The notes below the pieces were generated by a model. It was not told where the DNA came from. It searched no databases and was given only the letters and a program-made list of their open reading frames with translations. A stretch of DNA of 64,000 bases from Henriciella sp. (GTDB lineage Bacteria > Pseudomonadota > Alphaproteobacteria > Caulobacterales > Hyphomonadaceae), in contig NZ_JAPYPG010000010.1 of NCBI RefSeq assembly GCF_029937755.1, forward strand, positions 1 through 64,000, in the 5' to 3' direction. Made by a program: the position numbers and the translations under genes. Below, piece by piece: positions 47,579 through 63,953 of the stretch; the stretch's first letter is position 1, and each line of letters begins with the position of its first letter.

Positions 47579-48315
47579 TGCTCCGACCCCTTCTGCTTGG
47601 CGAGATAGACAAGCCACTGACGGGCGGTCTCGAACTCCTTGGCCGTCAGGTCGGCAAGCTCCTCGATCTGCGTGCCCTTGCTGTTCAGGAAGTCGATGAA
47701 GTCGGGCTCATTGCGTCCGGCCTTCACGAGCCCTTGGCGAAGCTCCTGGACCTGCTTGGCGGAGATGGCAGATTGCGGAACATTGCCGTCATTGTCTTCG
47801 CCAGCCACACGAATGCCGAGAAGGGCGCAGGCCGTGTAGCGCTTGCCGTAGCTGACGGCCGACGCGACCGCCTGCAGGTCGTTCTTGCTGCCTGACTTGT
47901 CTGGCGGCAGAGGCAGGTCCGTACTGTCGGAGTGCCCGTCACGATGGCGAAGGATGCAGGTCACGATAACCTGACCGTTCTCCACGCGCGTCTTGTGCGA
48001 TATCGAGAAGCCGTAACGAGACGTGACAGGCAGAACCTTGTCCTGAATGTCCTCCCACTTGGCATAGGCGCCGTGGTGAGACGTGCCTTTTTTCTCAATT
48101 GCTGGCAGATTTGGCTGCATTTCCGCGAAGGCGTCAGAGAAGGTTGTTTCGGCCTGCCGCGCTTGCATCTTTTCGTGCATCGCGTAGAGCCGCTCCATCT
48201 TCTCGACATCGACTTCAGGGTTCGTCGCGGCCCGCTCGATCATTGAGACGAAAGCCGTTGCTTCCTCCCGAACCGCTACTTCATTCTTCTTTTCGATCAT
48301 TGCGCTATCGGGCAT
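47575..48315 (-). CDS. erf: ERF family single-strand annealing protein
   Basis: The product is 246 aa from ATG 48315, preceded by AAAGGAGAAG. The ERF core shows AEMQPNLPAIEKKGTSHHGAYAKWEDI near 70-96 (read in parts) and VASAVSYGKRYTACALLGI near 150-168. ERF proteins anneal single strands and support phage genome circularisation. Works with the neighbouring YqaJ exonuclease. Confidence 0.9.
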   Translation of the reverse strand: MPDSAMIEKKNEVAVREEATAFVSMIERAATNPEVDVEKMERLYAMHEKMQARQAETTFSDAFAEMQPNLPAIEKKGTSHHGAYAKWEDIQDKVLPVTSRYGFSISHKTRVENGQVIVTCILRHRDGHSDSTDLPLPPDKSGSKNDLQAVASAVSYGKRYTACALLGIRVAGEDNDGNVPQSAISAKQVQELRQGLVKAGRNEPDFIDFLNSKGTQIEELADLTAKEFETARQWLVYLAKQKGSEQ

Positions 48316-48655
48316 TGTCTTCTCCTTTGAGGGTGGCGCGGTAGGCTTCACGGGCGCGGCGGAAAATGCCGATGCTGAAGTCCGGATCGGGCATTGGCCA
48401 ATGGTCGGGCATCTCATCAAACTTCCGATAGCCAAGCTCTGTCGTCTCGTACCTCTGGGCGTACCGGGTGCGCTCGTATTCGAACTTTGCGGCGATCGGT
48501 CCCAAGGCCTCTTCCATCGCGTCTGCTTGTGCTAGACGGTCGATTATGGCGGGGAGCGACTCCATCACGGTATTTGATGCGCAGTCGGCCTCATCGTCGT
48601 CGCCAAGCTGCCAAGCGCGATGCACCTTCTTCAGCCTATCAATGTCCAGTGTCAT
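48305..48655 (-). CDS. Phage protein, unknown
   Basis: The product is 116 aa with a helical N-terminal half (DRLKKVHRAWQLGDDDEADC) and a C-terminal stretch with several aromatic residues (PDHWPMPDPDFSIGIFRR). It overlaps the ERF gene by 11 bases and the next gene by four. Function unknown. Confidence 0.6.
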   Translation of the reverse strand: MTLDIDRLKKVHRAWQLGDDDEADCASNTVMESLPAIIDRLAQADAMEEALGPIAAKFEYERTRYAQRYETTELGYRKFDEMPDHWPMPDPDFSIGIFRRAREAYRATLKGEDNAR

Positions 48656-51690: not shown

Positions 51691-52296
51691 TCACATGCTT
51701 AGAATAGATTTGCGAACTCGACCTAGCACCGAAGGCGACTGGCCTTCCCTCACGAAGATGGGCTGGTGAGCGTCGTTCACTGAGACTGGCTCGAACCGCT
51801 CAGGGTCCGGGCGGAAACGTTTGTAGGTGGCGTTTCCATCCTCGTCTGCGATCACATAGCAGGCATTCGGGACAAGAGCCTTCTCACGCAGATTCACGAA
51901 GATGACGCTCTCGGGCGGGGAAATGCGATCCATCGAGTCGCCCTGAACCCTGAGAGCTATCCATTCGCCGGTGGCCGACAAGTCCGGGGCTGTCACGCGG
52001 GGCGCGTCTGCGAGCGTGTCGACACTCATCTCTGAAAGCTTTGATGCACTGACCCATGAGATTAGGGGTGCGGACACTATGCCGCCGCCATCCTCATAAA
52101 GGACTTCAGAAACCGGGACTCGAAGGTAGCCAGCGATCTTTGCGGCCACGTCCGGAGGGATCTTCCGCGTCTGCTTTACCCAGCGGCCAACATTCTGACG
52201 ACTCGTGTTCAGAGCCCGCGCGAGCTCGGCCTGGCTAGTGCCGCGCCGTTCAATCAGCCCCGCGAGACCGTTGGTGAATTTACCCTCAACATCCAT
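51691..52296 (-). CDS. Phage repressor, HTH plus S24 peptidase-like domain
   Basis: CI/LexA-type lysogeny repressor. The product is 201 aa from ATG 52296; longer frames run through the operators. HTH at about 21-41 (SQAELARALNTSRQNVGRWV). The S24 domain has the Ser-Lys pair S121 (QGDSMDR) and K159 (NATYKRF). A standard Ala-Gly or Cys-Gly cleavage dipeptide is not obvious in the linker (EDGGGIVSAPLISW), so induction by self-cleavage is uncertain. It faces the Cro-like gene across three operator-like sites. Confidence 0.92.
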   Translation of the reverse strand: MDVEGKFTNGLAGLIERRGTSQAELARALNTSRQNVGRWVKQTRKIPPDVAAKIAGYLRVPVSEVLYEDGGGIVSAPLISWVSASKLSEMSVDTLADAPRVTAPDLSATGEWIALRVQGDSMDRISPPESVIFVNLREKALVPNACYVIADEDGNATYKRFRPDPERFEPVSVNDAHQPIFVREGQSPSVLGRVRKSILSM

Positions 52297-52308
52297 AGGC
52301 CATATGCT

Positions 52309-52325
52309 GTCACCAATCAGGCTAC
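52309..52325. promoter_or_regulatory. Phage operator, right cluster, site 3 (weak)
   Basis: GTCACCA-ATC-AGGCTAC: perfect left half, poor right half. It lies 13 bases upstream of the repressor start codon and would suit autoregulation. Confidence 0.5.
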
Positions 52326-52332
52326 GTGACGA

Positions 52333-52349
52333 TCTTCCAAAGTGGTGAC
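52333..52349. promoter_or_regulatory. Phage operator, right cluster, site 2
   Basis: TCTTCCA-AAG-TGGTGAC, with a perfect right half. Eight bases from site 1, directly before the -35 of the Cro-side promoter. Confidence 0.6.
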
Positions 52350-52378
52350 TTGCATCGTCACCAGAATGGTGACATAAG
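52350..52378 (+). promoter_or_regulatory. Rightward early promoter (PR) for cro
   Basis: TTGCAT (52350-52355), 17 bases, CATAAG (52373-52378). The full palindromic operator exactly fills the spacer. Transcription would begin at about 52385, the first base of the cro ATG, so the mRNA may be leaderless. Confidence 0.65.
52357..52373. promoter_or_regulatory. Phage operator, right cluster, site 1 (perfect)
   Basis: GTCACCA-GAA-TGGTGAC, a perfect 7-base inverted repeat with a three-base centre. It defines the consensus used for the other sites. Confidence 0.85.
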
Positions 52379-52384
52379 GCGTGT

Positions 52385-52603
52385 ATGACACTCGCTGACT
52401 GGCTCACCAAGCACGACCTTTCGGATGCCGATTTTGCGGAGCGCATCGGCGTGAGCCGTCAAGCGCTGCATCGATACAAGACCGGCGACCGCCATCCGCG
52501 CACTACGATCATGGAAAAGATCGTTGAGCATACCGGAGGCGAAGTCACCGCGAACGATTTTTTTGAAGCCAAGCAGGCCCCCGCCGAGGCGGTGCAGCCA
52601 TGA
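52385..52603 (+). CDS. cro: Cro-like HTH protein
   Basis: The product is 72 aa, an almost bare Cro/C1-type HTH: DLSDADFAERIGVSRQALHRY at 11-31 (read as one helix-turn-helix), followed by TGDRHPRTTIMEKIVEHTGG. First gene of the rightward operon, divergent from the repressor and controlled by the shared operators. Likely antagonist of the repressor. Confidence 0.85.
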   Translation: MTLADWLTKHDLSDADFAERIGVSRQALHRYKTGDRHPRTTIMEKIVEHTGGEVTANDFFEAKQAPAEAVQP

Positions 52604-52785
52604 CGCTCGCTTTCCTCATTTCCCTGTACCTTACCATCGGTCTCTTCGACCTGATGGCCCGTGGTCTCTGGATCGGCATTGACGACAAGGGGGTTATTCC
52701 CGGCGTCGTCGCGACCGCCGCGATGTTCATCTACGCCGCGTTCTGGCCGGTGCGTCTGATCAAAAGCATTTGGGAGGCGCTGTAG
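52600..52785 (+). CDS. Small two-helix membrane protein
   Basis: The product is 61 aa with hydrophobic segments at about 3-22 (LAFLISLYLTIGLFDLMA) and 33-52 (IPGVVATAAMFIYAAFWPV). ATGA overlap with cro. Unknown; its early position suits a superinfection exclusion or host-takeover protein, by inference only. Confidence 0.6.
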   Translation: MTLAFLISLYLTIGLFDLMARGLWIGIDDKGVIPGVVATAAMFIYAAFWPVRLIKSIWEAL

Positions 52786-52789
52786 ACCC

Positions 52790-52897
52790 ATGCGCGCCGC
52801 CCGAGCCGTCCTCTCCTTCATTGTGCCGCTGCGTCTGCTTCCGCTGGAAGCGATCTGTGCGGCCATGCGCGACATTCGCGCGGGGAGGGGGCAATGA
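52790..52897 (+). CDS. Very small phage protein (35 aa), tentative
   Basis: ATG 52790 to TGA 52897, four bases after the preceding stop. The peptide has an amphipathic hydrophobic start (AVLSFIVPLRLLPLEAICAA) and a basic end. GGGAGG lies upstream in the previous gene. Supported only by spacing and position. Confidence 0.4.
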   Translation: MRAARAVLSFIVPLRLLPLEAICAAMRDIRAGRGQ

Positions 52898-53022
52898 ATA
52901 CCCCAAGCGGACACCTCCGCCAGAGTCCCCGCCGGGACAGGACTGGTGATACACGGGCGCCATGCCACAGCCGCCGTGACGGGGTTCGACATACGCATCG
53001 GCTTAATGGCGTCAATCCCGGC

Positions 53023-53406
53023 TCATTTTCCATTCGCGCACGCAGGCGTCCCGCTCCCTGTGCCGTTCGTGCGCGTGCGCCGGGGGGCGATGGTTTTGCC
53101 GTCCCCCGGCGCGTCCCTGTTTGCGCTTCGCTCGTGCGTCGTCCCCCCACCCAGCCTGGGCGAAGTGCAAGAGCCGGAGGCGGCAGTCCCCGCTGTCTCC
53201 GGCTCAGTAATGCCCGTGGGCGAGAGCCTCGAAAATTCGAGTTCACGGCAAGAGCCGGGCGAGGGGTCAACTCCCTTCTCGTCCGGCTCGCTTCTATCAT
53301 TCAGCGTGCGCTCGATTTCGACCCCGATGCGCAGCTGTCTTATCGCTTGTTCCAAGAGAGCCAGACCCTCGCTGTAGGCGGTTCTGGCTCTCGCATCTGT
53401 CGTCAT
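53023..53406 (-). CDS. Possible phage protein on the opposite strand (tentative)
   Basis: The product would be 127 aa. GGAG lies nine bases before ATG 53406, and the first 45 residues read as a plausible helical protein (ARTAYSEGLALLEQAIRQLR). The rest is Gly/Ser/Thr/Pro-rich and coincides with the hairpins. It would be transcribed against the rightward operon. Could be real, a short leader plus noise, or chance. Confidence 0.33.
   Translation of the reverse strand: MTTDARARTAYSEGLALLEQAIRQLRIGVEIERTLNDRSEPDEKGVDPSPGSCRELEFSRLSPTGITEPETAGTAASGSCTSPRLGGGTTHERSANRDAPGDGKTIAPRRTRTNGTGSGTPACANGK
53078..53111. repeat. Hairpin 1: 9-bp perfect arms
   Basis: CGCCGGGGG (53078-53086) and CCCCCGGCG (53103-53111) with a 16-base loop that holds four consecutive T. 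Confidence 0.6.
53171..53205. repeat. Hairpin 2: 9-bp perfect arms
   Basis: GAGCCGGAG (53171-53179) and CTCCGGCTC (53197-53205); further pairs within the loop (CGGCAG/CGCTG) lengthen the stem. Confidence 0.6.
53252..53289. repeat. Hairpin 3: 12-bp arms
   Basis: GAGCCGGGCGAG (53252-53263) and CTCGTCCGGCTC (53278-53289), one G-T pair; an inner GGGGT/ACTCC pair continues the stem. Confidence 0.6.
53356..53392. repeat. Hairpin 4: 10-bp perfect arms
   Basis: GAGAGCCAGA (53356-53365) and TCTGGCTCTC (53383-53392), 17-base loop. Confidence 0.6.
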
Positions 53407-53450
53407 GGCGGCTCCGTTTTCTCTGCCTCGTCTCCACGGAGGTCAATCTG

Positions 53451-53843
53451 ATGGAGACGACGATGCATTCCAATTCCGAAATCGGCGACACTTTGCTGAC
53501 CGAGATCGTTTCGCGCCGCTGGGCGCGTTTTCAGGCCGCAAGGTGGCCGTCAGGGGAAGTGCAGGCGGCAGACCTGCAGGCCCGCAAGGTGGTGGTCGAT
53601 ACCCGCACCGTGAGCGGCTGGCGCCAAGGCCAGCTGCCATCCAACAAACATAAACTTCAGCTGATCCGCGCTGGCTTCAAGTCAATGCTCGACCGGGCTT
53701 ACGAGCCTGCCGAAGCCGCCGGGCGCATGGCTGATCTGGAGGCCCAGGTTGAAACTCAGAAAGCCGCTGCCGCAGCAGCCGAGAGAGAGCTCGCCCTCAT
53801 TCGTAAAGCGCTGGCTGGCTTCAGCGATGATCTGGAGGGCTGA
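53451..53843 (+). CDS. Phage protein with coiled coil, possible DNA binding
   Basis: The product is 130 aa (ATG 53451, GGAGGTC upstream; a second ATG at 53463). The middle part (VVVDTRTVSGWRQGQLPSNK) looks like a HTH of the kind used to choose a response by dosage, and the C-terminus is a heptad-rich coiled coil (ADLEAQVETQKAAAAAAERE). Function unknown. Confidence 0.65.
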   Translation: METTMHSNSEIGDTLLTEIVSRRWARFQAARWPSGEVQAADLQARKVVVDTRTVSGWRQGQLPSNKHKLQLIRAGFKSMLDRAYEPAEAAGRMADLEAQVETQKAAAAAAERELALIRKALAGFSDDLEG

Positions 53844-53931
53844 GCGCAAGCTCGACCTCTCCAACCGTATTCGCCGCAGCGCTGAGCGCCTGATGGCCAG
53901 AGCAAGGGAGGTGCTGAAAGATGAGCGATAG
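53827..53931 (+). CDS. Very small basic phage protein (34 aa), tentative
   Basis: ATG 53827 to TAG 53931, overlapping the end of the preceding gene by 17 bases and the next start by 11. The peptide is a single charged helix (RRSAERLMARAREVLKDE). No clear ribosome site; listed because such overlaps are the rule in this operon. Confidence 0.35.
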   Translation: MIWRAERKLDLSNRIRRSAERLMARAREVLKDER

Positions 53932-54772
53932 TCTGAAACTCATTTCTGAGCTTGCGACCGGGCTCAACTCTGGTGATCCATCTGAGGACATCGGAACGCC
54001 GGGCCGTGTTGATCGTGTGTCGGTGTTGGATCTGATAATCGACACTCGCTATCAGCGCACGATTGAAGCGGCAGGTGCGCGGAATATTCGTCGTATTGTC
54101 GAGGGCTTTCGCTGGGAGAAGTTCGAGCCTCTCATTGTTGCCCCATCCCCGGACTGGCCCGGGAAATACGCAGTCATTGACGGCCAGCACCGGGCGCTTG
54201 CTGCGTGGCTTCATCCGGATATCAACACAGTGCCTGCCGTGGTTCATGAGTTGAACCCGCGCGAGCAGGCGCGCGCCTTCCGTGACGTGAACAAGAACAG
54301 GACCAAGATTGGGCCGCTGCACATCTATCGCGCAGGCCTGATTTCTGGTGATCCCTCCGCGATTGGCATTCAGGCCGTCACCAATGCGGCGAGTGTCGAG
54401 GTCGCGCGCTTCAACTTGTCCAAGGCCAACATGCAGCCTCACCAGCTTGTCTGCGTGAACGCAGTTGGCAAGGCGCTCAAGCGCTCCGGCTTCGAAGCCG
54501 TGTCCCGGGCGCTTCTTTGTCTACGTCGCGCCGCGAAAGGCTGTGACTGTTCTTTGATGTCAGCCTGGGCCGTTCAGGTTGTCTCGATATGCCTCGCCTC
54601 GCATCGGTCCATTTCGAATGATGCCATGGTTGATGTGCTTCAGTCGGTTGATCTGGACACAGAGGTTAAGGACCGGGCCGACGAGTTGGCGGAATCCTAC
54701 GCGAAGAAGATGGCCACCGGCGCTGATGTTCTTGCGCGGATGGTTCAGTCCGCAGGGGCGATTGCCGCATGA
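53921..54772 (+). CDS. ParB/sulfiredoxin-fold nuclease-like protein
   Basis: The product is 283 aa. An N-terminal ParB-like domain is visible: VLDLIIDTRYQRTIE near 36-50 and VIDGQHRALAAWLHPD near 86-101, followed by the box EQARAFRDVNKNRTKI. The C-terminal part is helical. This phage type (DUF6551-like) is thought to act on DNA; partition activity is not implied, as no ParA or site is seen. Confidence 0.82.
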   Translation: MSDSLKLISELATGLNSGDPSEDIGTPGRVDRVSVLDLIIDTRYQRTIEAAGARNIRRIVEGFRWEKFEPLIVAPSPDWPGKYAVIDGQHRALAAWLHPDINTVPAVVHELNPREQARAFRDVNKNRTKIGPLHIYRAGLISGDPSAIGIQAVTNAASVEVARFNLSKANMQPHQLVCVNAVGKALKRSGFEAVSRALLCLRRAAKGCDCSLMSAWAVQVVSICLASHRSISNDAMVDVLQSVDLDTEVKDRADELAESYAKKMATGADVLARMVQSAGAIAA

Positions 54773-55221
54773 GAGACGAACGCTTCTTCTGCCGGCACTG
54801 TGAAATGCAACGCCCGGGTCCACCGAAAATCATGCCGCCGGGGTCTATCCCCTTAACTGGCTGCGAGTCCTGCAAGACCGCCGCTCTCGCGCGCGGCCCG
54901 AATGCCAAGACCAACTTCCACGTTGAACGCAACCACAAGGCAGGCGGAACCTCTGCGCAAGCGGCACAGGCTGCTGCTGAGGGCGCACGTCTCGGAGACC
55001 TTCACCGCCGGATATGGAAGGCGCTGGCTGAGAAGCCGATGACGGCCGATGAGGTGGCCCGCGAACTCGGAATTGTCCTGAACACATCTAGGGCCAGGCT
55101 GTCGGACCTCAAGTCCGCTGGCTTTGTCGAGCCGACCGGAGAGCACCGCGAAACAGAAACGGGCCGCATGGCTGACGTTCTCCGCGCTGTCTCGAAGGCA
55201 GAGCAGGGGAGGGCTGCTTAG
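54769..55221 (+). CDS. Zinc-ribbon and winged-helix phage protein
   Basis: The product is 150 aa. An N-terminal CxxC pair set (FFCRHCEMQ, GCESCKTAA) about 24 residues apart forms a likely zinc ribbon, and the C-terminal half is a winged helix (PMTADEVARELGIVLNTSRA, RLSDLKSAGFVEP). Likely a transcription regulator of the rightward operon. Overlaps the ParB-like gene by four bases. Confidence 0.72.
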   Translation: MRDERFFCRHCEMQRPGPPKIMPPGSIPLTGCESCKTAALARGPNAKTNFHVERNHKAGGTSAQAAQAAAEGARLGDLHRRIWKALAEKPMTADEVARELGIVLNTSRARLSDLKSAGFVEPTGEHRETETGRMADVLRAVSKAEQGRAA

Positions 55222-55758
55222 ATGGGCAAGCGCTCTGACTTCGCTCGCCTCAAAGGCGACTTCTACCGCACACCAAAGGCTGCGGTTATTCCGCTTGTTC
55301 CGCACCTGCCTGAGCGGTTCCTTTACTCCGAGCCCTGCGCCGGTGATGGCTGTTTGATTGAACACCTTCGGGCACTGCATCAGCAGGGCTGGTGCGTTCA
55401 AAGTGACGACATCGATCCGAAGCATGATCGGGTTAATGAAAGGGACGCGCTGTCCCCGGACTGGTCTTTGTCGCCCGAAGCGGACTTGATCATCACGAAC
55501 CCGCCGTGGACCCGCGAAATCCTGCATCCGATGATCGAGCGCTTCTCTGCGCTTCGGCCAACATGGCTGCTGTTCGACGCCGACTGGATGCACACACATC
55601 AGGCCCGCCCATACCTCGCATTCTGCCGGAAGATCGTCTCTGTCGGTCGCGTCAAATGGATCGCGGACTCTCCGCACACCGGCAAGGATAACGCTGCCTG
55701 GTATCTCTTTGACCAGTCCAGCGAAGGCGCTGCCGAGTTCATCGGGAGGGCTGCCTGA
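55222..55758 (+). CDS. Small class I DNA methyltransferase-like protein
   Basis: The product is 178 aa. SAM motif I variant EPCAGDG at 37-43 and catalytic motif NPPW at 93-96, the pattern of N6-adenine or N4-cytosine methyltransferases. The N-terminal DFYRTPKAAV segment is typical of phage adenine methyltransferases. There is no room for a full target recognition domain, so specificity may be low or need a partner. No restriction enzyme gene is adjacent, so it is an orphan. Confidence 0.85.
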   Translation: MGKRSDFARLKGDFYRTPKAAVIPLVPHLPERFLYSEPCAGDGCLIEHLRALHQQGWCVQSDDIDPKHDRVNERDALSPDWSLSPEADLIITNPPWTREILHPMIERFSALRPTWLLFDADWMHTHQARPYLAFCRKIVSVGRVKWIADSPHTGKDNAAWYLFDQSSEGAAEFIGRAA

Positions 55759-55907
55759 TGACCCGCTCCGACAATCTCCGCCCCCTCTCCAAGCGCGCTG
55801 AAAAAGCCGCAAAGGCTATCGAGCGAAAGACACGCCGGGAGGAGCCGGGCGGACCGGATACGCCAGAAAGTGTACACGCCCCGACCCCGCTTAAGGAGGT
55901 GTCATGA
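55758..55907 (+). CDS. Small basic phage protein (49 aa)
   Basis: ATG 55758, overlapping the methyltransferase stop by one base; stop overlaps the next start by four. The peptide is a charged helix followed by a Pro-rich tail (EKAAKAIERKTRREEPGG). The AAGGAGGTG at its end is the ribosome site of the next gene. Function unknown. Confidence 0.55.
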   Translation: MTRSDNLRPLSKRAEKAAKAIERKTRREEPGGPDTPESVHAPTPLKEVS

Positions 55908-56206
55908 AAACCGAACTTGAACAAGCCGTGAGCCTTGTTGCTGGAGGCGCCACGTATGGCGATGCAGCGACACAGCTGGGGCTGACCAGAAACCAAGTTG
56001 CCGGCGCCTGCCACAGAGCAGGCTTCACGACCGGGAAAGGGCGCAGCCAAGGAAAGGGCAGGCCAGTGCCCGCTCGGATCGCGATGGCCCAAGAGGCTGT
56101 CAGGGCTCACCCTACACTTCGGGCGGCTGCCGATGCGCTGGGTATGTCCGCCTCCACGCTCAAAGACTGGCGCGATCGGTACTTCACGGTCGGAGCGTCA
56201 TCATGA
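55904..56206 (+). CDS. GcrA-like helix-turn-helix protein
   Basis: The product is 100 aa with two HTH-like parts: TYGDAATQLGLTRNQVAGACH near 17-37, which resembles the N-terminal HTH of the alphaproteobacterial cell-cycle regulator GcrA (RNAVIGKvhR-type), and RAAADALGMSASTLKDWRDR near 73-92. The RNA polymerase sigma-binding part of GcrA is not evident. Could be a phage transcription regulator. Confidence 0.62.
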   Translation: MKTELEQAVSLVAGGATYGDAATQLGLTRNQVAGACHRAGFTTGKGRSQGKGRPVPARIAMAQEAVRAHPTLRAAADALGMSASTLKDWRDRYFTVGASS

Positions 56207-56325
56207 ACCGCATCGAACACCCCTGGCACGTCCGCGTTGGCGCGGCCCTCTGCCTCGTCTCTGCAATCGCTGTCTTCGCCACTCTGGTGAAGCTGGTGAA
56301 CTGGATGCTGGGGATTGGGGGATGA
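56203..56325 (+). CDS. Small membrane protein (40 aa)
   Basis: ATG 56203, overlapping the preceding stop by four bases and the next start by four. One long hydrophobic helix (VGAALCLVSAIAVFATLVKL) and a glycine end. Function unknown. Confidence 0.55.
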   Translation: MNRIEHPWHVRVGAALCLVSAIAVFATLVKLVNWMLGIGG

Positions 56326-56696
56326 GGTTCCGCACGCTCCCCATCCCGCCGTCGGTCAATGGCATGTTCCCCGGCAAGGCCCGCCGCCACAAGTCCGCGG
56401 ACTACAAGGCATGGATCGAGCATGCCGGCTGGGTGCTGGAGACGGCGCGCATTCCCCCGGTGATCGGCCCGTTCGCCCTGCATATCCGCCTGCCGGTGAA
56501 GATGAGGGGCGATATCGGGAACCGCGAGAAAGCGATCAGCGATCTGCTCGTCAAGCACGGCGTCACCCCCGACGACTCCAAGACCTGGCGCATCACCATC
56601 GAACGCCACCCGAACGTACGCGACTGCTCATGCCAGTTCGCCCTTACCGAAATCGACCCCAACACTGGCGCTGAACGCGCCGAGGAGGCTGCGTGA
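56322..56696 (+). CDS. RusA-family Holliday junction resolvase
   Basis: Cleaves four-way junctions in phage recombination and before packaging. The product is 124 aa from ATG 56322; a longer open frame upstream is in another gene. LPIPPSVNGMFPGKARRHKS is the N-terminal mark, and RGDIGNREKAISDLLVKHG carries the acidic residues (D and N/D) of the RusA active site near 62-80. Confidence 0.85.
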   Translation: MRFRTLPIPPSVNGMFPGKARRHKSADYKAWIEHAGWVLETARIPPVIGPFALHIRLPVKMRGDIGNREKAISDLLVKHGVTPDDSKTWRITIERHPNVRDCSCQFALTEIDPNTGAERAEEAA

Positions 56697-57238
56697 AACC
56701 TACCGCTGAACAAATAGACGACATGGTCGACGCATTCGAAGAAGGCATGCTCCCTAACCTCGTAGAAGAATTTGAGGCTCAGCGGGTAGAGGGGCTTCGC
56801 GCCCTGCTGCACGAGTGCGAGAGCCCAATCGAATGCAAGCTCGCCTACGCACTGGCTGCCCAGCGCGGCAATCTCATGGAATATGATTGGGTCAGTGGCA
56901 AGAAGCGTAAATACTTCGCCGTTCTGCCCGCCGCCCTTCAGATAATTGCTCAATATCCGATTGGCCGGTTCCGCGTCGATTTCGCCATTAAGGCTCCGCT
57001 CTGGAACGGCCCGGCGCTCCAGGTTGCCATTGAGTGCGACGGGCATGACTTTCACGAGCGCACAAAGCAGCAGGCCGCACGAGACAGATCCAAGGATCGA
57101 CTACTGACCCAAAAAGGTTGGACCGTCCTGCGCTTCACTGGGTCCGAGATCCACAACAAGCCGGCCGAGTGCGCCAAGGACGTATCGAAAACCGTTGAGG
57201 CATTCCTGATCGACGACTGGAGGCGCGCCAATGGCTAA
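56693..57238 (+). CDS. DUF559/Vsr-like endonuclease
   Basis: The product is 181 aa with a GTG start overlapping the RusA stop. The PD-(D/E)XK-like core reads QYPIGRFRVDFAI near 83-95, VAIECDGHDFHERT near 107-120, then KDRLLTQKGWTVLRFTGSEI near 130-149. Such enzymes act as repair or mobile-element nucleases. Target unknown. Confidence 0.8.
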   Translation: MKPTAEQIDDMVDAFEEGMLPNLVEEFEAQRVEGLRALLHECESPIECKLAYALAAQRGNLMEYDWVSGKKRKYFAVLPAALQIIAQYPIGRFRVDFAIKAPLWNGPALQVAIECDGHDFHERTKQQAARDRSKDRLLTQKGWTVLRFTGSEIHNKPAECAKDVSKTVEAFLIDDWRRANG

Positions 57239-57950
57239 GCTTCCATACGTCCCGCTCTATCTCGATGCGTTCGGCAGTGCCGTCGCTCACCTTTCTCTGG
57301 AAGAAGAGGGCGCTTATTTCCGTCTCCTTCGTCTGTGCTGGGAAACCCCCGGATGTACGATCCCGACTGACCCGAAGTGGATCGCTCGCAAGTTGCGGGT
57401 GAACACGGAGGAATATCAGAACGCGGTCGTGCCGATCCTCAAGGAGTTTTTCAGCACACGTCGGGGCCGGTACTACCAGAAGCGCCTGCTGGCCGAATAC
57501 GTCAAAGCTAACGACAAAGTTCGGGCACGTTCGGAAGCAGGAAAAGCAGGTGCTGCCGCCAAGCATCGGAAAACAAAGAAAAAAGAGCCTGACAAACGCA
57601 GCGATTTGCCAAAGCAAACGCATGGCATACCAGAACCAGAAGGTTCTGGTAGAACCCTTACAGGTTCTACCATGAACCTACCGCCTGACGGCGCGCTTGC
57701 CTTGGAGAGGCTACGCGCCGCAGCGGTAACGGAGCACGCCGCGAGCGAAGTCGAAGGCCTCATAGGCTGCATCACCGCATGGGATGACGGGACGTTCCAC
57801 GTCACCGGCAAGTATGCGCAGGACCGCTTTTCCGAAAGCCTCTCTCGCGAACTTCGAGCCGAAGGGCTCACCCTGGCGATCGGATCGAGGAAGCCGAAGG
57901 CGGACAAGCCATCGCCCAAATTCACAGCAATCGAGGGAGGGAAATCATGA
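57231..57950 (+). CDS. DUF1376 phage replication protein
   Basis: The product is 239 aa. The DUF1376 N-terminus (YVPLYLDAFGSAVAHLSLEE and YFRLLRLCWETPGC) occurs in phage replication initiators. A basic linker at about 105-140 follows, then a C-terminal domain. The DNA for the linker (57630-57669) holds four copies of GGTTCT/AGAACC, a possible origin. Overlaps the DUF559-type gene by eight bases. Confidence 0.8.
   Translation: MAKLPYVPLYLDAFGSAVAHLSLEEEGAYFRLLRLCWETPGCTIPTDPKWIARKLRVNTEEYQNAVVPILKEFFSTRRGRYYQKRLLAEYVKANDKVRARSEAGKAGAAAKHRKTKKKEPDKRSDLPKQTHGIPEPEGSGRTLTGSTMNLPPDGALALERLRAAAVTEHAASEVEGLIGCITAWDDGTFHVTGKYAQDRFSESLSRELRAEGLTLAIGSRKPKADKPSPKFTAIEGGKS
57630..57669. repeat. Iteron-like repeats inside the replication gene
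   Basis: CCAGAACC-AGAA-GGTTCTGG (57630-57649), followed by TAGAACC-CTTACA-GGTTCTA (57650-57669): two perfect inverted repeats sharing the hexamer AGAACC. A fifth half-site, TGAACC, follows at 57673-57678. Iterons embedded in the initiator gene hinge are known from the lambda O gene. Confidence 0.6.
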
Positions 57951-58042
57951 CCCGCCGCATCGACTGGCCGGCCGTTCTGATCTGGCTCGCATACACCGCC
58001 ATTTTCATCGCGCTACTGACAGGAGGAGACACCAATGCCTGA
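57947..58042 (+). CDS. Small membrane protein (31 aa)
   Basis: ATG 57947 (GGGAGGGAAATC upstream), overlapping the replication gene by four bases and the next gene by eight. One transmembrane helix ([20 protein letters not shown]). Function unknown. Confidence 0.5.
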
Positions 58043-58409
58043 CGACCACAAAATGAGCCTTCAGGTGCCGGGCCAGGATCCGGTCCATTTCACCAGCAGC
58101 CAGCTTCATCAGGCCGCTGAAATGTTCGGCGATCAGGACTTCGGCACAAAGCCGCCCTTCGACCCGGATCGTCTGGCGCCGGCTGCGCGCGAAAAGCTGC
58201 GGCTGACCGTTGAGCGTATCGAGCGCCTCGAAGAGGAAAAGAAGGAAGTCGCCGACCAGATCAAGGATGTCTACGCCGAGGCAAAGGCCATGGGCTACTG
58301 CACGAAGACGCTGCGGTCTGTGGTGAAGCTTCGGAAGCAGGACCGCGACGAGCGCCAGGAAGCGGAGTCCCTGCTCGAAACCTACATGATCGCGCTGGGG
58401 GAAATCTGA
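58035..58409 (+). CDS. GapR-like nucleoid protein (DUF2312)
   Basis: GapR clamps overtwisted DNA and helps replication and the cell cycle in Caulobacter. The product is 124 aa. Residues 48-124 ([58 protein letters not shown]) match the whole GapR domain. An N-terminal extension of about 45 residues ([20 protein letters not shown]) is phage-specific. GACAGGAGGAGAC precedes the ATG. Followed at once by the DnaA-like gene. Confidence 0.9.
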
Positions 58410-58780
58410 TGGCCTTCGACATTCCCCAGACCCCGAAAGACCGCCTGCTATCCGAGGCCCTCGATGCGGCGTCGCTGTACTTCAGCCGGCCAAACGCATC
58501 TGGCGCGATAGCAGCCGAGCCGATCACGAAAGCCCGCGTCCTCGACCGCTGCAAGGCCCGCTACAACGTCTGGCCGCGTCAATGGTGCATGGCCTACATC
58601 CGCTGGAAATACCCGGAGATGAGCTATCCACGCATCGCCCGCATCTTCCGCATGAAGGACCACACCACCATCATGCATGCGAAGGAAGCGGCGAAGGAGA
58701 GATACCCCGACGCCATTTTCTGCCAGCCGGTTGATGAAGCCATCGGAGACCGTCTCGAAGCTCTGGGGCTGGCATCATGA
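58409..58780 (+). CDS. Standalone DnaA domain IV-like protein
   Basis: The product is 123 aa. Residues 71-91 (MSYPRIARIFRMKDHTTIMH) match the DnaA signature, which contacts the DnaA box; the preceding helices (VLDRCKARYNVWPRQWCMAY) fit the rest of domain IV. There is no AAA+ ATPase domain, so it could bind DnaA boxes but not melt DNA. Coupled to the GapR-like gene by a TGATG overlap. Confidence 0.88.
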   Translation: MAFDIPQTPKDRLLSEALDAASLYFSRPNASGAIAAEPITKARVLDRCKARYNVWPRQWCMAYIRWKYPEMSYPRIARIFRMKDHTTIMHAKEAAKERYPDAIFCQPVDEAIGDRLEALGLAS

Positions 58781-59010
58781 AGACACTTCACGGCCCGCAC
58801 ACTGGCATCATCCAGCCATGGACCCGGAATAGGGGAACCCCGCCAACCGGCTCCTGCCAGCGCACCATCATTGTCGAGGGCAAGGCGAAGGTCTGCGGCA
58901 AGACCTGCAAGGGCCAGCTCTGCGACGAGCACAAGGGCTCTACCGCTCCGCTTGCCGGGGCAGGGCGGTGGCCGGGCGGGAAGGCTCAATCGAAGACAGG
59001 GAGGTTTTGA
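58777..59010 (+). CDS. Small phage protein with Cys cluster
   Basis: The product is 77 aa with five Cys/His positions (SCQRTIIVEGKAKVCGKTCK, LCDEH) consistent with a small zinc-binding module, plus a Gly/Lys-rich tail. ATGA overlap with the DnaA-like gene. Function unknown. Confidence 0.58.
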   Translation: MKTLHGPHTGIIQPWTRNRGTPPTGSCQRTIIVEGKAKVCGKTCKGQLCDEHKGSTAPLAGAGRWPGGKAQSKTGRF

Positions 59011-59012
59011 AC

Positions 59013-59234
59013 ATGCATACAATGAAAGTGCATTTGCCAGACACGGCGTTCGCGCATCGCATGGGCTGGAAATACCACGTCCAGTGGTTCGATGCGGGCC
59101 GCCCGTGCTGGTATCGCCGCAGGACGCTAGCAGAGGCCTCCAGAGACTTTCACGACCTGATGGCGGAAGGTGCTTCCCCGTTCATCGTCGACGCCCTCAC
59201 GGGTGAACCGGTTAAAGCGGAGGCTGCTCGATGA
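59013..59234 (+). CDS. Small phage protein, unknown
   Basis: The product is 73 aa from ATG 59013 (AGGGAGG upstream); a second ATG lies three codons on. Sequence reads as alpha/beta (WKYHVQWFDAGRPCWYRRRT, LAEASRDFHDLMAEGASPF). Unknown. Confidence 0.58.
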   Translation: MHTMKVHLPDTAFAHRMGWKYHVQWFDAGRPCWYRRRTLAEASRDFHDLMAEGASPFIVDALTGEPVKAEAAR

Positions 59235-59428
59235 AGAGACACGGCGAAATCTCTATCCGGCAGTGGTGTGACGGTAAGTGGCGCAGGACTTTCCATACCG
59301 GGCCGGGCGGTCCTGATGGGCTGGCCTACGATCTCCACTCACCGGGATTTGAGATCCGCGAAGGTGCCGAAACGTACCGGTTCCAAGGAGAGGTTGCGAA
59401 ACGGCGTGAGCCGGTGGAGGCGGGATGA
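59231..59428 (+). CDS. Small phage protein, unknown
   Basis: The product is 65 aa, rich in aromatic and basic residues (SIRQWCDGKWRRTFHTGPGG). Four-base overlaps on both sides support its expression. Unknown. Confidence 0.55.
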   Translation: MKRHGEISIRQWCDGKWRRTFHTGPGGPDGLAYDLHSPGFEIREGAETYRFQGEVAKRREPVEAG

Positions 59429-59694
59429 TGGATGTGAAGGGACTTGCCGAACTTTGCCTCGCTGGCCCTCACGCCCTGCTCGTGATCCCGAAGCCGATAG
59501 CCTTCAAGCCGGGAGAGCGCATCAGGCTTGCCGGAAGGTCCGGGCCGCTTGGGCGCGTTCTCAATGTCAAAGAGAACGGCGACAGGCTCGATGTCTGCGC
59601 GAGCTTCGATTCCACTGAAATCCTGCGCTGGCTTGTCGGGAACGGGATGGTTCGGCTGGCGTCAAAACAAACGATTCACGGGGACGCACAATGA
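59425..59694 (+). CDS. Small phage protein, unknown
   Basis: The product is 89 aa. The central KPGERIRLAGRSGPLGRVLN and DRLDVCASFDSTEILRWL suggest a small beta-barrel followed by a helix. Unknown. Confidence 0.57.
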   Translation: MMDVKGLAELCLAGPHALLVIPKPIAFKPGERIRLAGRSGPLGRVLNVKENGDRLDVCASFDSTEILRWLVGNGMVRLASKQTIHGDAQ

Positions 59695-60236
59695 CCACAG
59701 CAACCCTACGGAGGCCCTCATTGGCCAAGAGACCCGGCAGAAAACGCAACCTCAAAGCCAAGCGCTATCCGAACGGCAGCGTCCACCGCCATGATGAGCG
59801 TGTCGGCCCGACGCCGGAGCTTGAAGCGCGGAGGAAGGCGTTGCTCGGATCGAAGAACGCCGCTGGTGAGACAGACTGCGTGCTCGATCACCTCGCATCG
59901 CCCGTCAGCCAGGTTCTCACGCAGAAGCAGGCCGAGGCGGGCAGGCGGTATGCGACGGCCCGTCTGCGCGCGCTCAGGGCGGCGGGCGTGTCTCCGGAAG
60001 CGAAGTCGCCTCGCATGGCTGAACGGATCGGCGGCTCACCGGCCCCGGCATGGGTTGGTGACGACGGCAAGGCGGCGCACTATTGGCGGAAGGCAAGACA
60101 GTGTGTTTTCGACTGTGGCGGCGACGTTCGGCGGATCATCGAGAAGGTCTGCATCGACAACTGCCACCCGAAAGCGCACGAGGTCCGCAGGCTTCGCATT
60201 GGCCTCGACGCGCTGGTGCGGATGTGGAGGATTTGA
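59691..60236 (+). CDS. Basic phage protein, possible late regulator
   Basis: The product is 181 aa, with a very basic N-terminus (LRRPSLAKRPGRKRNLKAKR) and a helical C-terminus (GGDVRRIIEKVCIDNCHPKA). Its place at the end of the early operon, just ahead of the terminase area, is that of late-gene antiterminators or regulators, but no family mark is seen. Confidence 0.6.
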   Translation: MTTATLRRPSLAKRPGRKRNLKAKRYPNGSVHRHDERVGPTPELEARRKALLGSKNAAGETDCVLDHLASPVSQVLTQKQAEAGRRYATARLRALRAAGVSPEAKSPRMAERIGGSPAPAWVGDDGKAAHYWRKARQCVFDCGGDVRRIIEKVCIDNCHPKAHEVRRLRIGLDALVRMWRI

Positions 60237-61240
60237 TGCCTGACGGTTTCCCTCCCGCTTCGCTCGACTGCACACGGCGCGCCCCTAAAACGGGATATAC
60301 CTCACCCGAAAAGGCCGACTACCGAGAGCGAGTATGGTCTGCGATTGGGAATGAGGCCGGTGTCTTTTTGACAGACCCGCGCGCCATGTGGCTGCTTTTA
60401 CCATCCCGTGAGGGCGCGGAGATCGAAGTCGCAATCCGGCACGGTATTCCAGAAGATCGCATCATTGCGATTGATGAGAATCCAGCGCTAATAGCTGTTT
60501 CGCACTGGCGGAAACGCTGGCCTCGCGTCAAGTATTTTGGATGTCCGGCGCGAGATGTTGGCAAAAAAATCGCCGATAGGGGATGGGTGCTTGCCGGAGC
60601 CAATCTTGACCTATGCTACAATTTTTCCGAAAGCCTGATTAACGAAGTCAATGCGTTCTTAGCCACAACACCGCGCTTTCATAACTTCTGTATTGCTGTG
60701 ACAATCATGAAAGGCAGAGAAGGAAGCGCGCTTGCTCGTTTCGTCAATGAAACCACATCGGAAGCCTTTAGCGAGTCTCGGATGGCGGCACTTTTTGACC
60801 AGAGTGCCCTTTGCAGCAGTCCGTGGAGCGTATTAGATCAGGGGAAATACCGCGCTAGCAAGACGGCTGCGATATGGGCAGTCTTGAGGGGGTGTCCAGA
60901 ACAGCACCCGCCATCGATTAGACCTTTGCTGGCAAAGATAGAGCGGCTCACAAGAAAGGCGGAGCGGATTGACCGTCTTGCCCGAGTATTGCGAGCTAGG
61001 GTCCAGAATGACATCGCTTTAAATCCCAGAAAAGCAGACCGGAAATACTCGCTTAGTCATCTTAGAAAAAGGGTGGATTTGCGCAACGCCGCCGTGCGGA
61101 CAATTGACATTAGGCAAGAGCATCTCAGCAGAGAGGTGTCAGAGGCTCTGCACTTGCATTGGTCCAGCACGGTAGGGGCGATCCCTGCGTGGCCATGGTT
61201 TTGGAAGCCGAAAGTATCGCACACTATGCGTAGTGTATAG
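60236..61240 (+). CDS. AT-rich cargo-type gene, Rossmann-like fold suspected
   Basis: The product is 334 aa from ATG 60236, sharing the A of the preceding TGA. Base content is clearly richer in A+T than its neighbours. Part of the sequence looks like a methyltransferase-type Rossmann core: HGIPEDRIIAIDENPALI near 80-97 (acidic end of strand 2), then GANLDLCYNFSESLINEVNA near 120-139. No SAM motif I or NPPY is certain. The C-terminal third is basic and helical (KIERLTRKAERIDRLARVLR). It may be a late arrival in the phage. Confidence 0.6.
   Translation: MPDGFPPASLDCTRRAPKTGYTSPEKADYRERVWSAIGNEAGVFLTDPRAMWLLLPSREGAEIEVAIRHGIPEDRIIAIDENPALIAVSHWRKRWPRVKYFGCPARDVGKKIADRGWVLAGANLDLCYNFSESLINEVNAFLATTPRFHNFCIAVTIMKGREGSALARFVNETTSEAFSESRMAALFDQSALCSSPWSVLDQGKYRASKTAAIWAVLRGCPEQHPPSIRPLLAKIERLTRKAERIDRLARVLRARVQNDIALNPRKADRKYSLSHLRKRVDLRNAAVRTIDIRQEHLSREVSEALHLHWSSTVGAIPAWPWFWKPKVSHTMRSV
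61221..61236. repeat. Short perfect inverted repeat at gene end
   Basis: ACACTA (61221-61226), TGCG, TAGTGT (61231-61236), overlapping the stop of the previous gene. No T-run; meaning unknown. Confidence 0.4.
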
Positions 61241-61329
61241 CCACCCCGCTATCCACAACCTCTAGCCCAACCCCCTTGACACACGAAACGAACACATAGA
61301 GAACCTGCATAAATTCAGTGTTCAGAAAT

Positions 61330-61361
61330 GCGCCTAGGGCTCACGCTCTCAGGCGCTTTTT
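61330..61361 (+). terminator. Terminator of the rightward early operon
   Basis: GCGCCT (61330-61335) and AGGCGC (61351-61356) followed by five T. The 15-base loop includes GAGC/GCTC pairing. It would end early transcription; read-through would need an antiterminator. Confidence 0.6.
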
Positions 61362-61376
61362 CGTATCTGCGGCAGC

Positions 61377-61730
61377 GTGTCGGATAGAAGCGGAAGCCGG
61401 GAAGCCAGTGACCGTCACGCAATGCCCGGCCCGCAGATAATGAGCAAGTCGCCCAGAAGCCCGAACTGTCACCGTATGGTGCGCGTTCCACCCAATCGGT
61501 TGGATAGGTCCATGGGCGCAGATACGTCGTCAGCGGTTATCCGCTGGCACCCCAGCACCCCGTTTAACGGCAGGCTGGGACTTGTAAGACGCAAGAGGGT
61601 GGAGTTGATCACCACCGGGCGGCGTCTATACGATGTGGCCCGGCAGCGCATCGCGAATACGAGCCTACCCGATTGGGCGCTACTGCCGGTCAATTTTCAG
61701 CGGGTACTCGCCACAGGTCAAATGCGATGA
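61377..61730 (+). CDS. Weakly supported phage protein (tentative)
   Basis: The 117-aa frame starts at GTG 61377; an internal ATG at 61476 is an alternative. The C-terminal half (VELITTGRRLYDVARQRIAN, LPDWALLPVNFQRVLATGQ) reads as protein-like, while the N-terminal half is Ser/Pro/Arg-rich. No clear ribosome site. Could be chance. Confidence 0.35.
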   Translation: MSDRSGSREASDRHAMPGPQIMSKSPRSPNCHRMVRVPPNRLDRSMGADTSSAVIRWHPSTPFNGRLGLVRRKRVELITTGRRLYDVARQRIANTSLPDWALLPVNFQRVLATGQMR

Positions 61731-61782
61731 CATAGGGCGGGCGAGCTAAGAGAATGCATGTGAGACTGCCCGCTCCCCCCTT

Positions 61783-61853
61783 CACCGCCCGGCGATCGAA
61801 CCGGCCGACACCCTCCCTCCTGTAGCGACCGTGGCTTCATGTGCCGGGCGGTG
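61783..61853. repeat. Long-range 11-bp perfect inverted repeat
   Basis: CACCGCCCGGC (61783-61793) and GCCGGGCGGTG (61843-61853), with 49 bases between. It lies about 430 bases before the terminase small subunit gene; it may be a structured RNA, a cos/pac element or a protein site. Confidence 0.55.
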
Positions 61854-61874
61854 ATGACCTGAAACGGAGAGCGT

Positions 61875-62189
61875 ATGCGAGAGAAGCGTAAGCTGGAAGA
61901 CTGGGATAACGGCGAAGACGTGTGGTTCGACCGCATTGAGATCCAGCACATCACTCAAACGCATACCGCATACATGCTCGCCAACGGCTGCCAGGGCCTT
62001 CTCACAGACCAGCTGTTCGACAGCTTCCATGACGCTTACGCCGAGTTGAAAAAGCAGAATGGCCCCGACGCAGACATCGATGAGCAAATCGTCCGCGTTG
62101 TAGTCTCGATCATCCCTGACAATGGCGACTACCGCTACGAAGATTTCAATGAGCGCGGTCGGCACAAATGGGGCAGTGACTCGCGTTGA
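61875..62189 (+). CDS. Phage protein, unknown
   Basis: The product is 104 aa from ATG 61875 (ACGGAGAGC upstream). Acidic, with aromatic residues (LEDWDNGEDVWFDRIEIQH) and a helical middle (LTDQLFDSFHDAYAELKKQN). Unknown; first gene before the terminase pair. Confidence 0.62.
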   Translation: MREKRKLEDWDNGEDVWFDRIEIQHITQTHTAYMLANGCQGLLTDQLFDSFHDAYAELKKQNGPDADIDEQIVRVVVSIIPDNGDYRYEDFNERGRHKWGSDSR

Positions 62190-62278
62190 AATATAAACCT
62201 GTGGCTTCTGGCTTCACGGGCTGAACACTCGCAAACCTACATCAAAGGGTGAAACATTAACGTTTCTCGATAAAGATC

Positions 62279-62725
62279 ATGGCCGAAGACGAGAAGAACA
62301 AGGGTGGCAGGCCGCGCCTGTATGACGACCCGGCCCTCTTCGAGGCCAAGGTCGAGCAATACTTCGATAAGTGCGACGACGCGGAAAAGCCTCGCATCCC
62401 GACTGTCGCAGGCCTCGCCTATGAGCTTGGTTTCGCCAGCCGCCAGAGCCTTCTCGACTACGAAAAGGATGAGCGGTTTTCTTGCGCCGTATCGCGGGCG
62501 AGACTTCGCATCGAGATGGACCGATCCGAGCGCCTGGTCTCGAAAGATCAATATACGCCCGGTCTGCCGATGGACCTTGCCAGCAATCACGGCTGGACCA
62601 CGGCCCGCACTGAGACGGATGCGAACGTCACGATAAAGGACGCTGCCCGGACCCTTGATGACAAGCTCAGTAAATACGCTGACGCCGCCTCAGATGCGTT
62701 CGCTCCTGAAGGAGCTGACGACTGA
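62279..62725 (+). CDS. terS: Phage terminase small subunit
   Basis: Recognises the phage genome for packaging. The product is 148 aa. GGRPRLYDDPALFEAKVEQY near 9-28 and PTVAGLAYELGFASRQSLLD near 41-60 (HTH) match terminase small subunits of the P22 gp3-like/DNA-packaging group. It overlaps the large subunit gene. No good ribosome site is seen before the ATG. Confidence 0.85.
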   Translation: MAEDEKNKGGRPRLYDDPALFEAKVEQYFDKCDDAEKPRIPTVAGLAYELGFASRQSLLDYEKDERFSCAVSRARLRIEMDRSERLVSKDQYTPGLPMDLASNHGWTTARTETDANVTIKDAARTLDDKLSKYADAASDAFAPEGADD

Positions 62726-63953
62726 GGAGAAGGCGGCGCTCAACTATCGCTGGGAGTTCTGGGCAAGGCCCGACCAGCTTGAGCCGTCCGGTGACTGGTG
62801 GACGGTCTGGCTCGCCCTTGCTGGACGCGGCTGGGGTAAGACCCGCTGCGGTGCCGAATGGGTGCGCCAGATCAAGAACGAGGTTGGCCGCATCGGCCTG
62901 ATCGCTCCGACCGCTGCCGATGCCCGTGATGTCATGGTCGAAGGCGAAAGCGGTATCATGGCGATCTCGCCGCCCTGGGACCGTCCATTGTTCGAGCCGT
63001 CCAAGCGCCGGCTGACATGGGATAACGGGGCCATGGCAACGCTGTATTCAGCGGATGAGCCTGACCGGCTTCGCGGGCCCCAGCACGCCGCACTCTGGTG
63101 TGATGAGCTGGCCGCATGGAAATACATGCAGGAAGCATGGGACATGGCGATGTTCGGGCTGCGGCTTGGTAATCGCCCGAAGGTCTGCGCGACGACGACG
63201 CCGCGACCACTGCCCCTGATCCGCGAATTGCTGAAGTCGAAAACGACCTGCGTCAGTCGCGGTCGGACATATGACAATCTGGCCAACCTTGCCCCGGCCT
63301 TCCGGGCGGCAGTGTTGGCGAAGTATGAGGGCACACGCCTCGGCCGCCAGGAACTGAACGCGGAAGTCCTGGACGATGTGCCGGGGGCGCTCTGGACCAG
63401 GCAGACAATCGAGGAAGCGCTGTGGCGCAATGACCTGCCGGACATGAAGCGGATCGTGGTTGCGGTCGACCCGTCCGGGGCTTCTGGAACCGATGGCGAG
63501 AAGGCAGATAGTATCGGGATCGTGGCCGCTGGCCTCGGTGTTGATGGTCTCGGCTACATTCTCGCTGACAGGACATGCGACCTTTCCCCGGCTGGCTGGG
63601 GGCGGCGCACGGTCGATACCTATAACGAGTTTGGCGCCGATCGCGTGGTTGCTGAGCGGAACTATGGCGGGGCCATGGTCGAGCACGTCATCCGCACCGT
63701 CGATAAGTCGGTGAGCTACAAGGAAGTGGTCGCCAGCCGGGGCAAGGTCATTCGGGCCGAGCCGGTTGCCGCCCTCTACGAACAAGGACGGGTCCGCCAT
63801 GTCGGCGGGCTGACTGAACTCGAAGACCAGATGTGCGCAATGACGAGCGACGGGTACATGGGCGATGGCTCTCCCGACAGGCTCGATGCTGCTGTCTGGG
63901 CGCTGAGCGACCTGATGCTTGGTGATGCACCTTATACGCTGGATTGGGTCTGA
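62694..63953 (+). CDS. terL: Phage terminase large subunit
   Basis: ATP-driven DNA packaging motor with a nuclease domain. The product is 419 aa from ATG 62694; an in-frame ATG at 62655 is also possible, and both overlap terS. Walker A GRGWGKT at 44-50, Walker B ALWCDE (D137, E138), motor motif CATTTPRP near 165-172, and the RNase H-like nuclease with VVAVDPSG (D259), VVAERNYGG and RLDAAVWAL near the end. Complete. Confidence 0.95.
   Translation: MRSLLKELTTEEKAALNYRWEFWARPDQLEPSGDWWTVWLALAGRGWGKTRCGAEWVRQIKNEVGRIGLIAPTAADARDVMVEGESGIMAISPPWDRPLFEPSKRRLTWDNGAMATLYSADEPDRLRGPQHAALWCDELAAWKYMQEAWDMAMFGLRLGNRPKVCATTTPRPLPLIRELLKSKTTCVSRGRTYDNLANLAPAFRAAVLAKYEGTRLGRQELNAEVLDDVPGALWTRQTIEEALWRNDLPDMKRIVVAVDPSGASGTDGEKADSIGIVAAGLGVDGLGYILADRTCDLSPAGWGRRTVDTYNEFGADRVVAERNYGGAMVEHVIRTVDKSVSYKEVVASRGKVIRAEPVAALYEQGRVRHVGGLTELEDQMCAMTSDGYMGDGSPDRLDAAVWALSDLMLGDAPYTLDWV

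Follow-up and report, generated by a model that had tools for sequence, protein, structure and literature searches.

The stretch of DNA analysed here, referred to as the window, comprises 64,000 nucleotides of contig NZ_JAPYPG010000010.1 from Henriciella sp. Its first 42 kb carry genes of the host, whose genome measures 3.78 Mb, and its right part is a temperate Henriciella prophage that begins at 42268 and extends beyond the window end. Within 55222-58780, a rightward early operon of this prophage encodes a methyltransferase-like protein (55222-55758), a 100-aa protein with two helix-turn-helix (HTH) motifs (55904-56206), a GapR protein (58035-58409) and a stand-alone DnaA domain IV (DnaA-IV, 58409-58780), the start of which overlaps the gapR stop. 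A check of the open reading frames agreed with the positions of these four genes, which a first-pass annotation had interpreted as a phage copy of the host cell-cycle circuit. The GapR and the free DnaA domain IV of that proposed set were confirmed; the GcrA and CcrM assignments and the conservation of the set were not.

GapR was identified by a match to Pfam family PF10073 of 106.9 bits, the cut-off being 22.6. The protein passed the NCBI subfamily model NF010247 (107.9 bits, cut-off 94) but missed the cut-off of the NCBI equivalog for Caulobacter-type GapR (96.9 versus 140 bits) and is therefore described as a GapR domain protein, not a Caulobacter-type equivalog. Its core is identical to that of the host's own GapR at 68 of 74 residues (92%) and at 84% of bases, and its identity to 15 other host GapRs, ten from the genus and five from the family, ranged from 60 to 90%. 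DNA contacts of GapR have been described at positions 34, 42, 49, 56, 59, 60, 63 and 66 (PMC7498317; papers are cited by PMC number). At these eight positions and the structural residue R65, the phage protein differs from the host GapR solely by S for Q at 60; K34, K42, K49, K56, K66 and R65 are kept and R59 and K63 match the host. Like Caulobacter crescentus GapR (UPF0335/DUF2312), homologues of which have been solved (6cfy, 6ozx, 6jyk), it has a complete DNA-binding domain with host-like contact residues, and it differs in being prophage-encoded and in carrying its own N-terminal extension of about 48 residues.

The origin of the gene was evaluated in a tree of 77 GapR sequences with 28 phage rows and hosts sampled from one order only, built on 75 alignment columns and with many forks left open. 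The GapRs of the window, of a prophage in Henriciella mobilis (genome G010) and of the two respective hosts formed a clade of four with a support of 97/98. This placement within the host clade, together with the 92% core identity, bears out the assignment of the phage protein to the host type. Seven of the 28 phage rows fell among hosts of the family (the window, L010, L147, L149, L148, L150 and L153), and the phage label required six changes on the tree, of which at least four were forced by starred branches. Such nesting points to transfer of gapR from host to phage. Since the other 21 rows were separate from every sampled host and the hosts came from one order, repeated capture is supported inside Henriciella's host family only. 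The ratio of nonsynonymous to synonymous substitution (dN/dS) of GapR was 0.105 between the phage and its own host, 0.115 between the G010 phage and the same host and 0.235 between the two phages, and that of DnaA-IV was 0.164 between the window and the G010 copy; these values rest on short genes with few changes. GapR was carried by 109 phage records and was found in all 120 genomes searched of the host's order, with multiple matches in 14 of these genomes. The host's order denotes the order as grouped in the genome collection used, presumably the Caulobacterales of GTDB; NCBI taxonomy places Henriciella in Hyphomonadaceae, Hyphomonadales.

The gene that follows gapR encodes 123 aa with a single Pfam match, to DnaA domain IV (PF08299, 39.1 bits, cut-off 31.5), which confirms the first-pass label; neither the AAA+ domain nor domain I was detected with Pfam. 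An AlphaFold2 model built on 56 sequences reached a predicted local distance difference test score (pLDDT) of 88.6. In a VIA search with this model the top six rows were all DnaA (1j1v, Z 9.9), followed by an unrelated row at Z 5.4, and in Foldseek the top five rows were all DnaA, with no E-value below 0.001 (best 0.043). The sequence match carries more weight than the fold because a Z below about 13 for helical models can reflect a common arrangement. The window protein shares with E. coli DnaA domain IV (1j1v) its predicted fold, the HTH with DHTT signature, the basic-loop residue and the box-contact positions. Unlike E. coli DnaA it is stand-alone and is predicted to lack ATP binding, filament formation and helicase contacts, as domains I-III are missing.

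In DnaA, R399 reads the minor groove and helix 434-451 the major groove, and the mutants T435M and R399A are impaired for box binding (PMC5742627). An alignment tally indicated that the residues contacting the DnaA box are kept in the window protein, which has K at one such position, as does the host's DnaA. Among 55 phage DnaA-IV proteins the R399 equivalent was R or K in 50, the P423 equivalent P in 50 and the S421 equivalent S in 54. These three positions are the only unbiased ones because the equivalents of D433, H434, T435 and R407, kept in 55 of 55 in part through selection, were in the search pattern. The DHT signature is not universal, as two mutually identical proteins among three DnaA-IV proteins reached via GapR records have DHS. 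The window protein was 39.6% identical to the host's DnaA over 53 residues.

Stand-alone DnaA domain IV is, judged by sequence, widespread in phages. With the window protein as query, 2 of 50,697 phage records matched at 0.01 and none of 72,556 plasmid records at 1e-3, and a profile of five DnaA-IV sequences reached at least 79 viral records. Of the frames extracted mechanically from the 79 records listed, 69 measured 72-234 aa and nine 258-483 aa, a Walker-A-like string being present in one of these nine; the remaining frame was mis-framed. A second phage DnaA-IV used as query matched 38 phage records, many resembling plain bacterial dnaA in contaminated records. Seven of these 38, selected as named records not of the plain dnaA kind, were inspected; GapR was present in four (RHph_N28_2, ppBeUSDA76-2, ppBjS10J-1 and ctOK67) and absent from the inspected stretches of three (two Microcystis phages and C72C1). 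An unannotated gut fragment was left out of this comparison. In the host's order, short-frame DnaA-IV genes (PF08299) occur in 36 of 41 genomes, counting frames up to 258 aa and including prophage copies; G184, G188, G204 and G208 lay below the cut-off and the frame of G211 contains a stop.

The host chromosome itself carries a stand-alone DnaA-IV of 127 aa outside the prophage (genome G000, C34:359353-359523; L007:8219-8602), adjoining genes that by eye resemble sufE and mucR; the window protein gave no match to it. In G193, a further genome of the host's order, an additional gapR copy (C1:62842-63054) is separated by 6.1 kb from a short DnaA-IV gene (69175-69390; 28.4 bits, below cut-off), and the two possibly mark another prophage carrying both.

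The two remaining genes of the proposed circuit were assigned to other families. The protein of 178 aa at 55222-55758 matched PHROG 799 (E 4e-30) and fell below every Pfam cut-off, and a sequence search of the PDB gave no match at E 1. In 30 aligned sequences including that of the window, the motif NPPW is invariant and EPC.G largely so, most of EPCAGDG being retained across the alignment; motif I precedes motif IV and no separate target-recognition domain was seen. The model (pLDDT 89.7) was nearest to a Listeria class I enzyme (Z 14.2) and M.TaqI (Z 13.9), and the fold class is a common one, as 820 of 1000 chains reached Z 8. The class I fold and a motif of the form (N/D)PP(Y/F/W), as expected of the M.TaqI type, support a bare M.TaqI-type amino-methyltransferase catalytic domain of a common phage type with predicted enzyme activity. 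Relatives were found in 40 phage records and in at least 599 viral stretches, of 600 matches listed. The gene is thus methyltransferase-like as first annotated, but not CcrM-like. We take CcrM to be a beta-class enzyme of PF01555 (N6_N4_Mtase), and the CcrM label was rejected because the 178 aa gave no PF01555 match at E 1 and motif I stands ahead of IV.

The two-HTH protein scored 39.9 bits with HTH_28 (cut-off 25), 17.1 bits with the GcrA family PF07750 (cut-off 26.9) and 14.5 bits with the NCBIfam GcrA model (cut-off 280). It aligned to the N-terminus of the host GcrA with 25 of 66 columns identical, covering host residues 8-69. The host protein has 160 aa, and its remaining C-terminal part, which we presume binds sigma-70, is absent from the phage protein. 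The GcrA label was rejected on both grounds, and no relatives of the protein were found in 50,697 phage records at 1e-3. Closer profile searches placed the HTH protein and the methyltransferase outside the GcrA and CcrM families. The host itself encodes gapR, dnaA and gcrA, along with four PF01555 methyltransferase genes.

Conservation of the four genes was evaluated with tblastn at 1e-3 in four sister prophages, namely the window, two copies in H. mobilis G010 and one in H. aquimarina G005; the same-genus genomes compared also included G027, a Henriciella metagenome-assembled genome. DnaA-IV was retained in 4/4, GapR in 3/4, the methyltransferase in 2/4 and the two-HTH protein in 1/4. A conserved four-gene cassette in related phages was rejected on account of this dispersal. 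The two G010 copies and the viral record L010 appear to belong to a single lineage, and a distant locus, L046, has DnaA-IV at 32% identity without GapR.

We tentatively favor, at less than even confidence, a reading in which the operon serves early replication in a temperate Henriciella phage, which employs a host-type GapR as topology helper and a DnaA-box-type binder beside a DUF1376 protein. The latter (57231-57950, + strand) is of primosomal type (PF07120, 66.9 bits, cut-off 30.1; PHROG 9327 'primosomal protein', 1.8e-21), and DUF1376, GapR and DnaA-IV are neighbors in the operon. The observed basis of this reading is the identity and predicted fold of both proteins, the host-type gapR, the place in an early operon by replication-type genes and the low dN/dS. 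We infer the functional steps, that is topology relief by GapR, the DNA target of DnaA-IV and its partnership with DUF1376. GapR acts in relaxing positive supercoils (PMC8360656). The phage protein would be a functional copy, acquired from the host lineage, that binds overtwisted phage DNA and aids host type II topoisomerases in removing positive supercoils during phage replication. DnaA-IV would be a sequence-specific binder of the DnaA-box type that, together with the adjoining DUF1376 protein, starts or limits phage replication, perhaps through a single site or a pair of sites that are weak or non-consensus. A similar setting was seen in three named phages, RHph_N28_2, ppBeUSDA76-2 and ctOK67, where GapR or DnaA-IV adjoins a DUF1376 or 'replisome organizer' gene.

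Several observations weigh against a replication operon of this kind. The sister prophage in G005 has DnaA-IV without GapR. Pairing is loose in general, as GapR exceeded its cut-off in 15 of the 79 DnaA-IV records listed (7/40 and 8/39), and DnaA-IV was present in 3 of 13 GapR records, one above the cut-off (the Henriciella record was excluded as already counted). In one of the 15 DnaA-IV records with GapR, G145, the two lie about 13 kb apart and on opposite strands. Immediate neighbors of DnaA-IV in other phages, counted by a simple script with 50 of 71 distinct loci usable on each side, included DUF1376 once upstream and three times downstream, DnaB helicase once and a single-stranded DNA-binding protein once. 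Upstream there were furthermore five HNH proteins, two C-5 methylases, one GapR and one GcrA, and downstream two PF01555 methylases; no family was prominent among the 50 usable neighbors per side. Confidence in the replication reading was lowered because few neighbors of DnaA-IV are replication genes and because 21 of the 28 phage GapRs are separate from the sampled hosts.

DnaA boxes likewise gave no support. The prophage DNA examined (the window from 42268 and L047) contains no exact box. In 70 other distinct phage loci totalling 1,077 kb, of 78 beyond L010, 3 exact boxes were observed against 2.7 expected and no clusters were found (at least 3 in 400 bp, one mismatch allowed); in E. coli oriC the identical scan detected 4 boxes in 400 bp. 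Half-sites were not clustered relative to permuted words. A relaxed box pattern occurred 23 times against 32.3 expected, from which no avoidance is claimed because permuted words vary equally widely. Clear iterons were not found in 52000-62400, where repeats are short and number two or three per family. A lone box or a pair of them, weak boxes, motifs of another kind or sites outside the loci scanned could escape the box test, and the missing clusters near dnaA-IV neither prove nor exclude masking of host DnaA boxes.

Such masking, which on balance we consider doubtful, constitutes the most interesting rival. DnaA-IV would here act as a host-directed decoy that occupies the DnaA boxes of the host oriC and of DnaA-regulated promoters and restrains initiation or shifts DnaA-dependent transcription, while the phage GapR keeps forks moving; without domains I-III the decoy could not build an AAA+ filament. 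The retained equivalents of R399, S421 and P423 and the lack of a box cluster in the phages' own DNA examined are in its favor. A prophage is also known to influence DnaA in a different way, as YfdR of E. coli CPS-53, a prophage gene product, acts on host initiation via DnaA. Unlike the window protein it binds DnaA domains I-II and is not itself a domain IV (PMC4776307). Against the decoy, the exact word TTATCCACA is rare in the host, with 6 well-separated sites in 3.78 Mb versus 17 for the reversed control word, and the strict DnaA box may be avoided or unused there. The operon is moreover an early one of a temperate phage with replication-type genes alongside. The host's own chromosomal DnaA-IV also speaks against a decoy, since a stand-alone domain IV need not harm a host that carries one.

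Chance adjacency of common phage genes in a mosaic genome, without a joint role, appears unlikely, yet it accommodates the independent spread of GapR (109 phage records), the methyltransferase (at least 599 viral stretches) and DnaA-IV (at least 79 viral records). In a pool of 86 control loci, 80 chosen by methyltransferase and 6 by ERF, GapR occurred in 4, DnaA-IV in 8 and both in 1, that is unassociated (p 0.33), and among the 51 control loci of at least 10 kb the corresponding numbers were 3, 7 and 0 (p 1.0). On the other hand, GapR was present in the DNA surrounding DnaA-IV at 14 of the 79 listed loci, always on the same strand and 0.1 to 7.1 kb away, compared with 4 of 86 in the control pool (p 0.011). 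This enrichment is weak because locus lengths and hosts differ between the pools, host taxonomy being uncontrolled in all co-occurrence tests.

A broader scheme, which we rate as quite unlikely, would combine both proteins into a two-part switch that redirects replication from the host to the phage. Temperate phages of alphaproteobacteria would capture host gapR repeatedly and couple it to a free DnaA-IV that occupies host oriC and DnaA promoters and restrains host initiation, phage forks being kept moving by GapR.

It is improbable that the proteins are local regulators, DnaA-IV and the HTH proteins governing the early-to-late switch of the phage and GapR serving as a nucleoid-type silencer or organizer of phage DNA. 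The operon is indeed rich in small DNA-binding proteins, which according to family scans are the ParB-like, winged HTH, two-HTH, GapR and DnaA-IV proteins, and GapR and H-NS have structural elements in common (PMC7373187). No conserved operator was found, however, among the short repeats of 52000-62400. A copied cell-cycle circuit of DnaA, GcrA, CcrM and GapR is highly improbable in spite of two real parts out of four, a first HTH resembling the GcrA N-terminus and reports of genuine GcrA and CcrM-like genes from further phages of alphaproteobacteria (PMC3556154, PMC9437464), as the GcrA cut-off was missed, the methyltransferase lies outside PF01555, the set is not conserved and the HTH protein is without a match in the phage records.

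Phage-borne cell-cycle proteins as such have been published, and the pair of GapR and free DnaA-IV is a new variation on them. Excerpts describe a GcrA homologue in phiCbK-like phages (PMC3556154) and, in Sinorhizobium phages, CcrM analogues, CtrA sites and predicted DnaA sites in phage genomes without asymmetry (PMC9437464). These phages resemble the window in carrying host cell-cycle-type proteins in an alphaproteobacterial setting; the proteins belong to other parts of the circuit, the window's HTH protein and methyltransferase being outside those families. A table on phiLM21-like prophages of Sinorhizobium meliloti contains a single COG0593 'DnaA', a single COG3750 UPF0335 and five GcrA genes; there, in the portion of the paper at hand, the first two are likewise prophage genes and are merely listed (PMC12429752). 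Among the open-licence papers listed in literature searches, one of which covered 20 of 3,239 papers, none was seen to analyze a phage GapR or a phage stand-alone DnaA-IV; one of these 20, PMC6006769, mentions Bac_DnaA_C. If the replication reading is true, phages supply naturally occurring forms of two proteins central to replication, and the role of DnaA domain IV without DnaA becomes directly testable through phage GapR or free DnaA-IV variants. Capture of GapR more than once by phages of one host family would then argue for positive supercoils, and their relief, as a limiting factor in phage replication.

The operon also encodes several proteins that the first-pass annotation omitted, DUF1376 among them. 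All are on the + strand. A ParB-like/DUF6551 protein (53921-54772; PF20188, 30.3 bits, cut-off 26.8; PHROG 1033, 2e-17) precedes the methyltransferase gene. A RusA-type Holliday junction resolvase (56322-56696, scanned as frame 56295-56696; PF05866, 26.4 bits, cut-off 22.8; PHROG 34, 1.5e-15) and an MTES_1575/DUF559-type nuclease (56693-57238; PF18741, 54.5 bits, cut-off 38.2) lie between the two-HTH and DUF1376 genes. With the window's DUF1376 protein as query, 11 stretches of viral contigs matched and none was confirmed. The left prophage end is marked by a tyrosine-type integrase (42268-43347, - strand), assigned by eye from its translation without a family scan, and terminase genes were assigned by eye at 62279-63953. 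tRNA genes were looked for and not found. Leftward early genes at 46949-48435 resemble, by eye, a YqaJ nuclease and an ERF recombinase, similarly annotated in Bradyrhizobium phages. Finally, the operon slot at 55758-55907 and the loci L045:6983-7666 and L043:13125-13469 contain differing genes with the same C-terminal tail, HAPTPLKEVS or HAPTPLKDVS, which is likely a shared mosaic junction.

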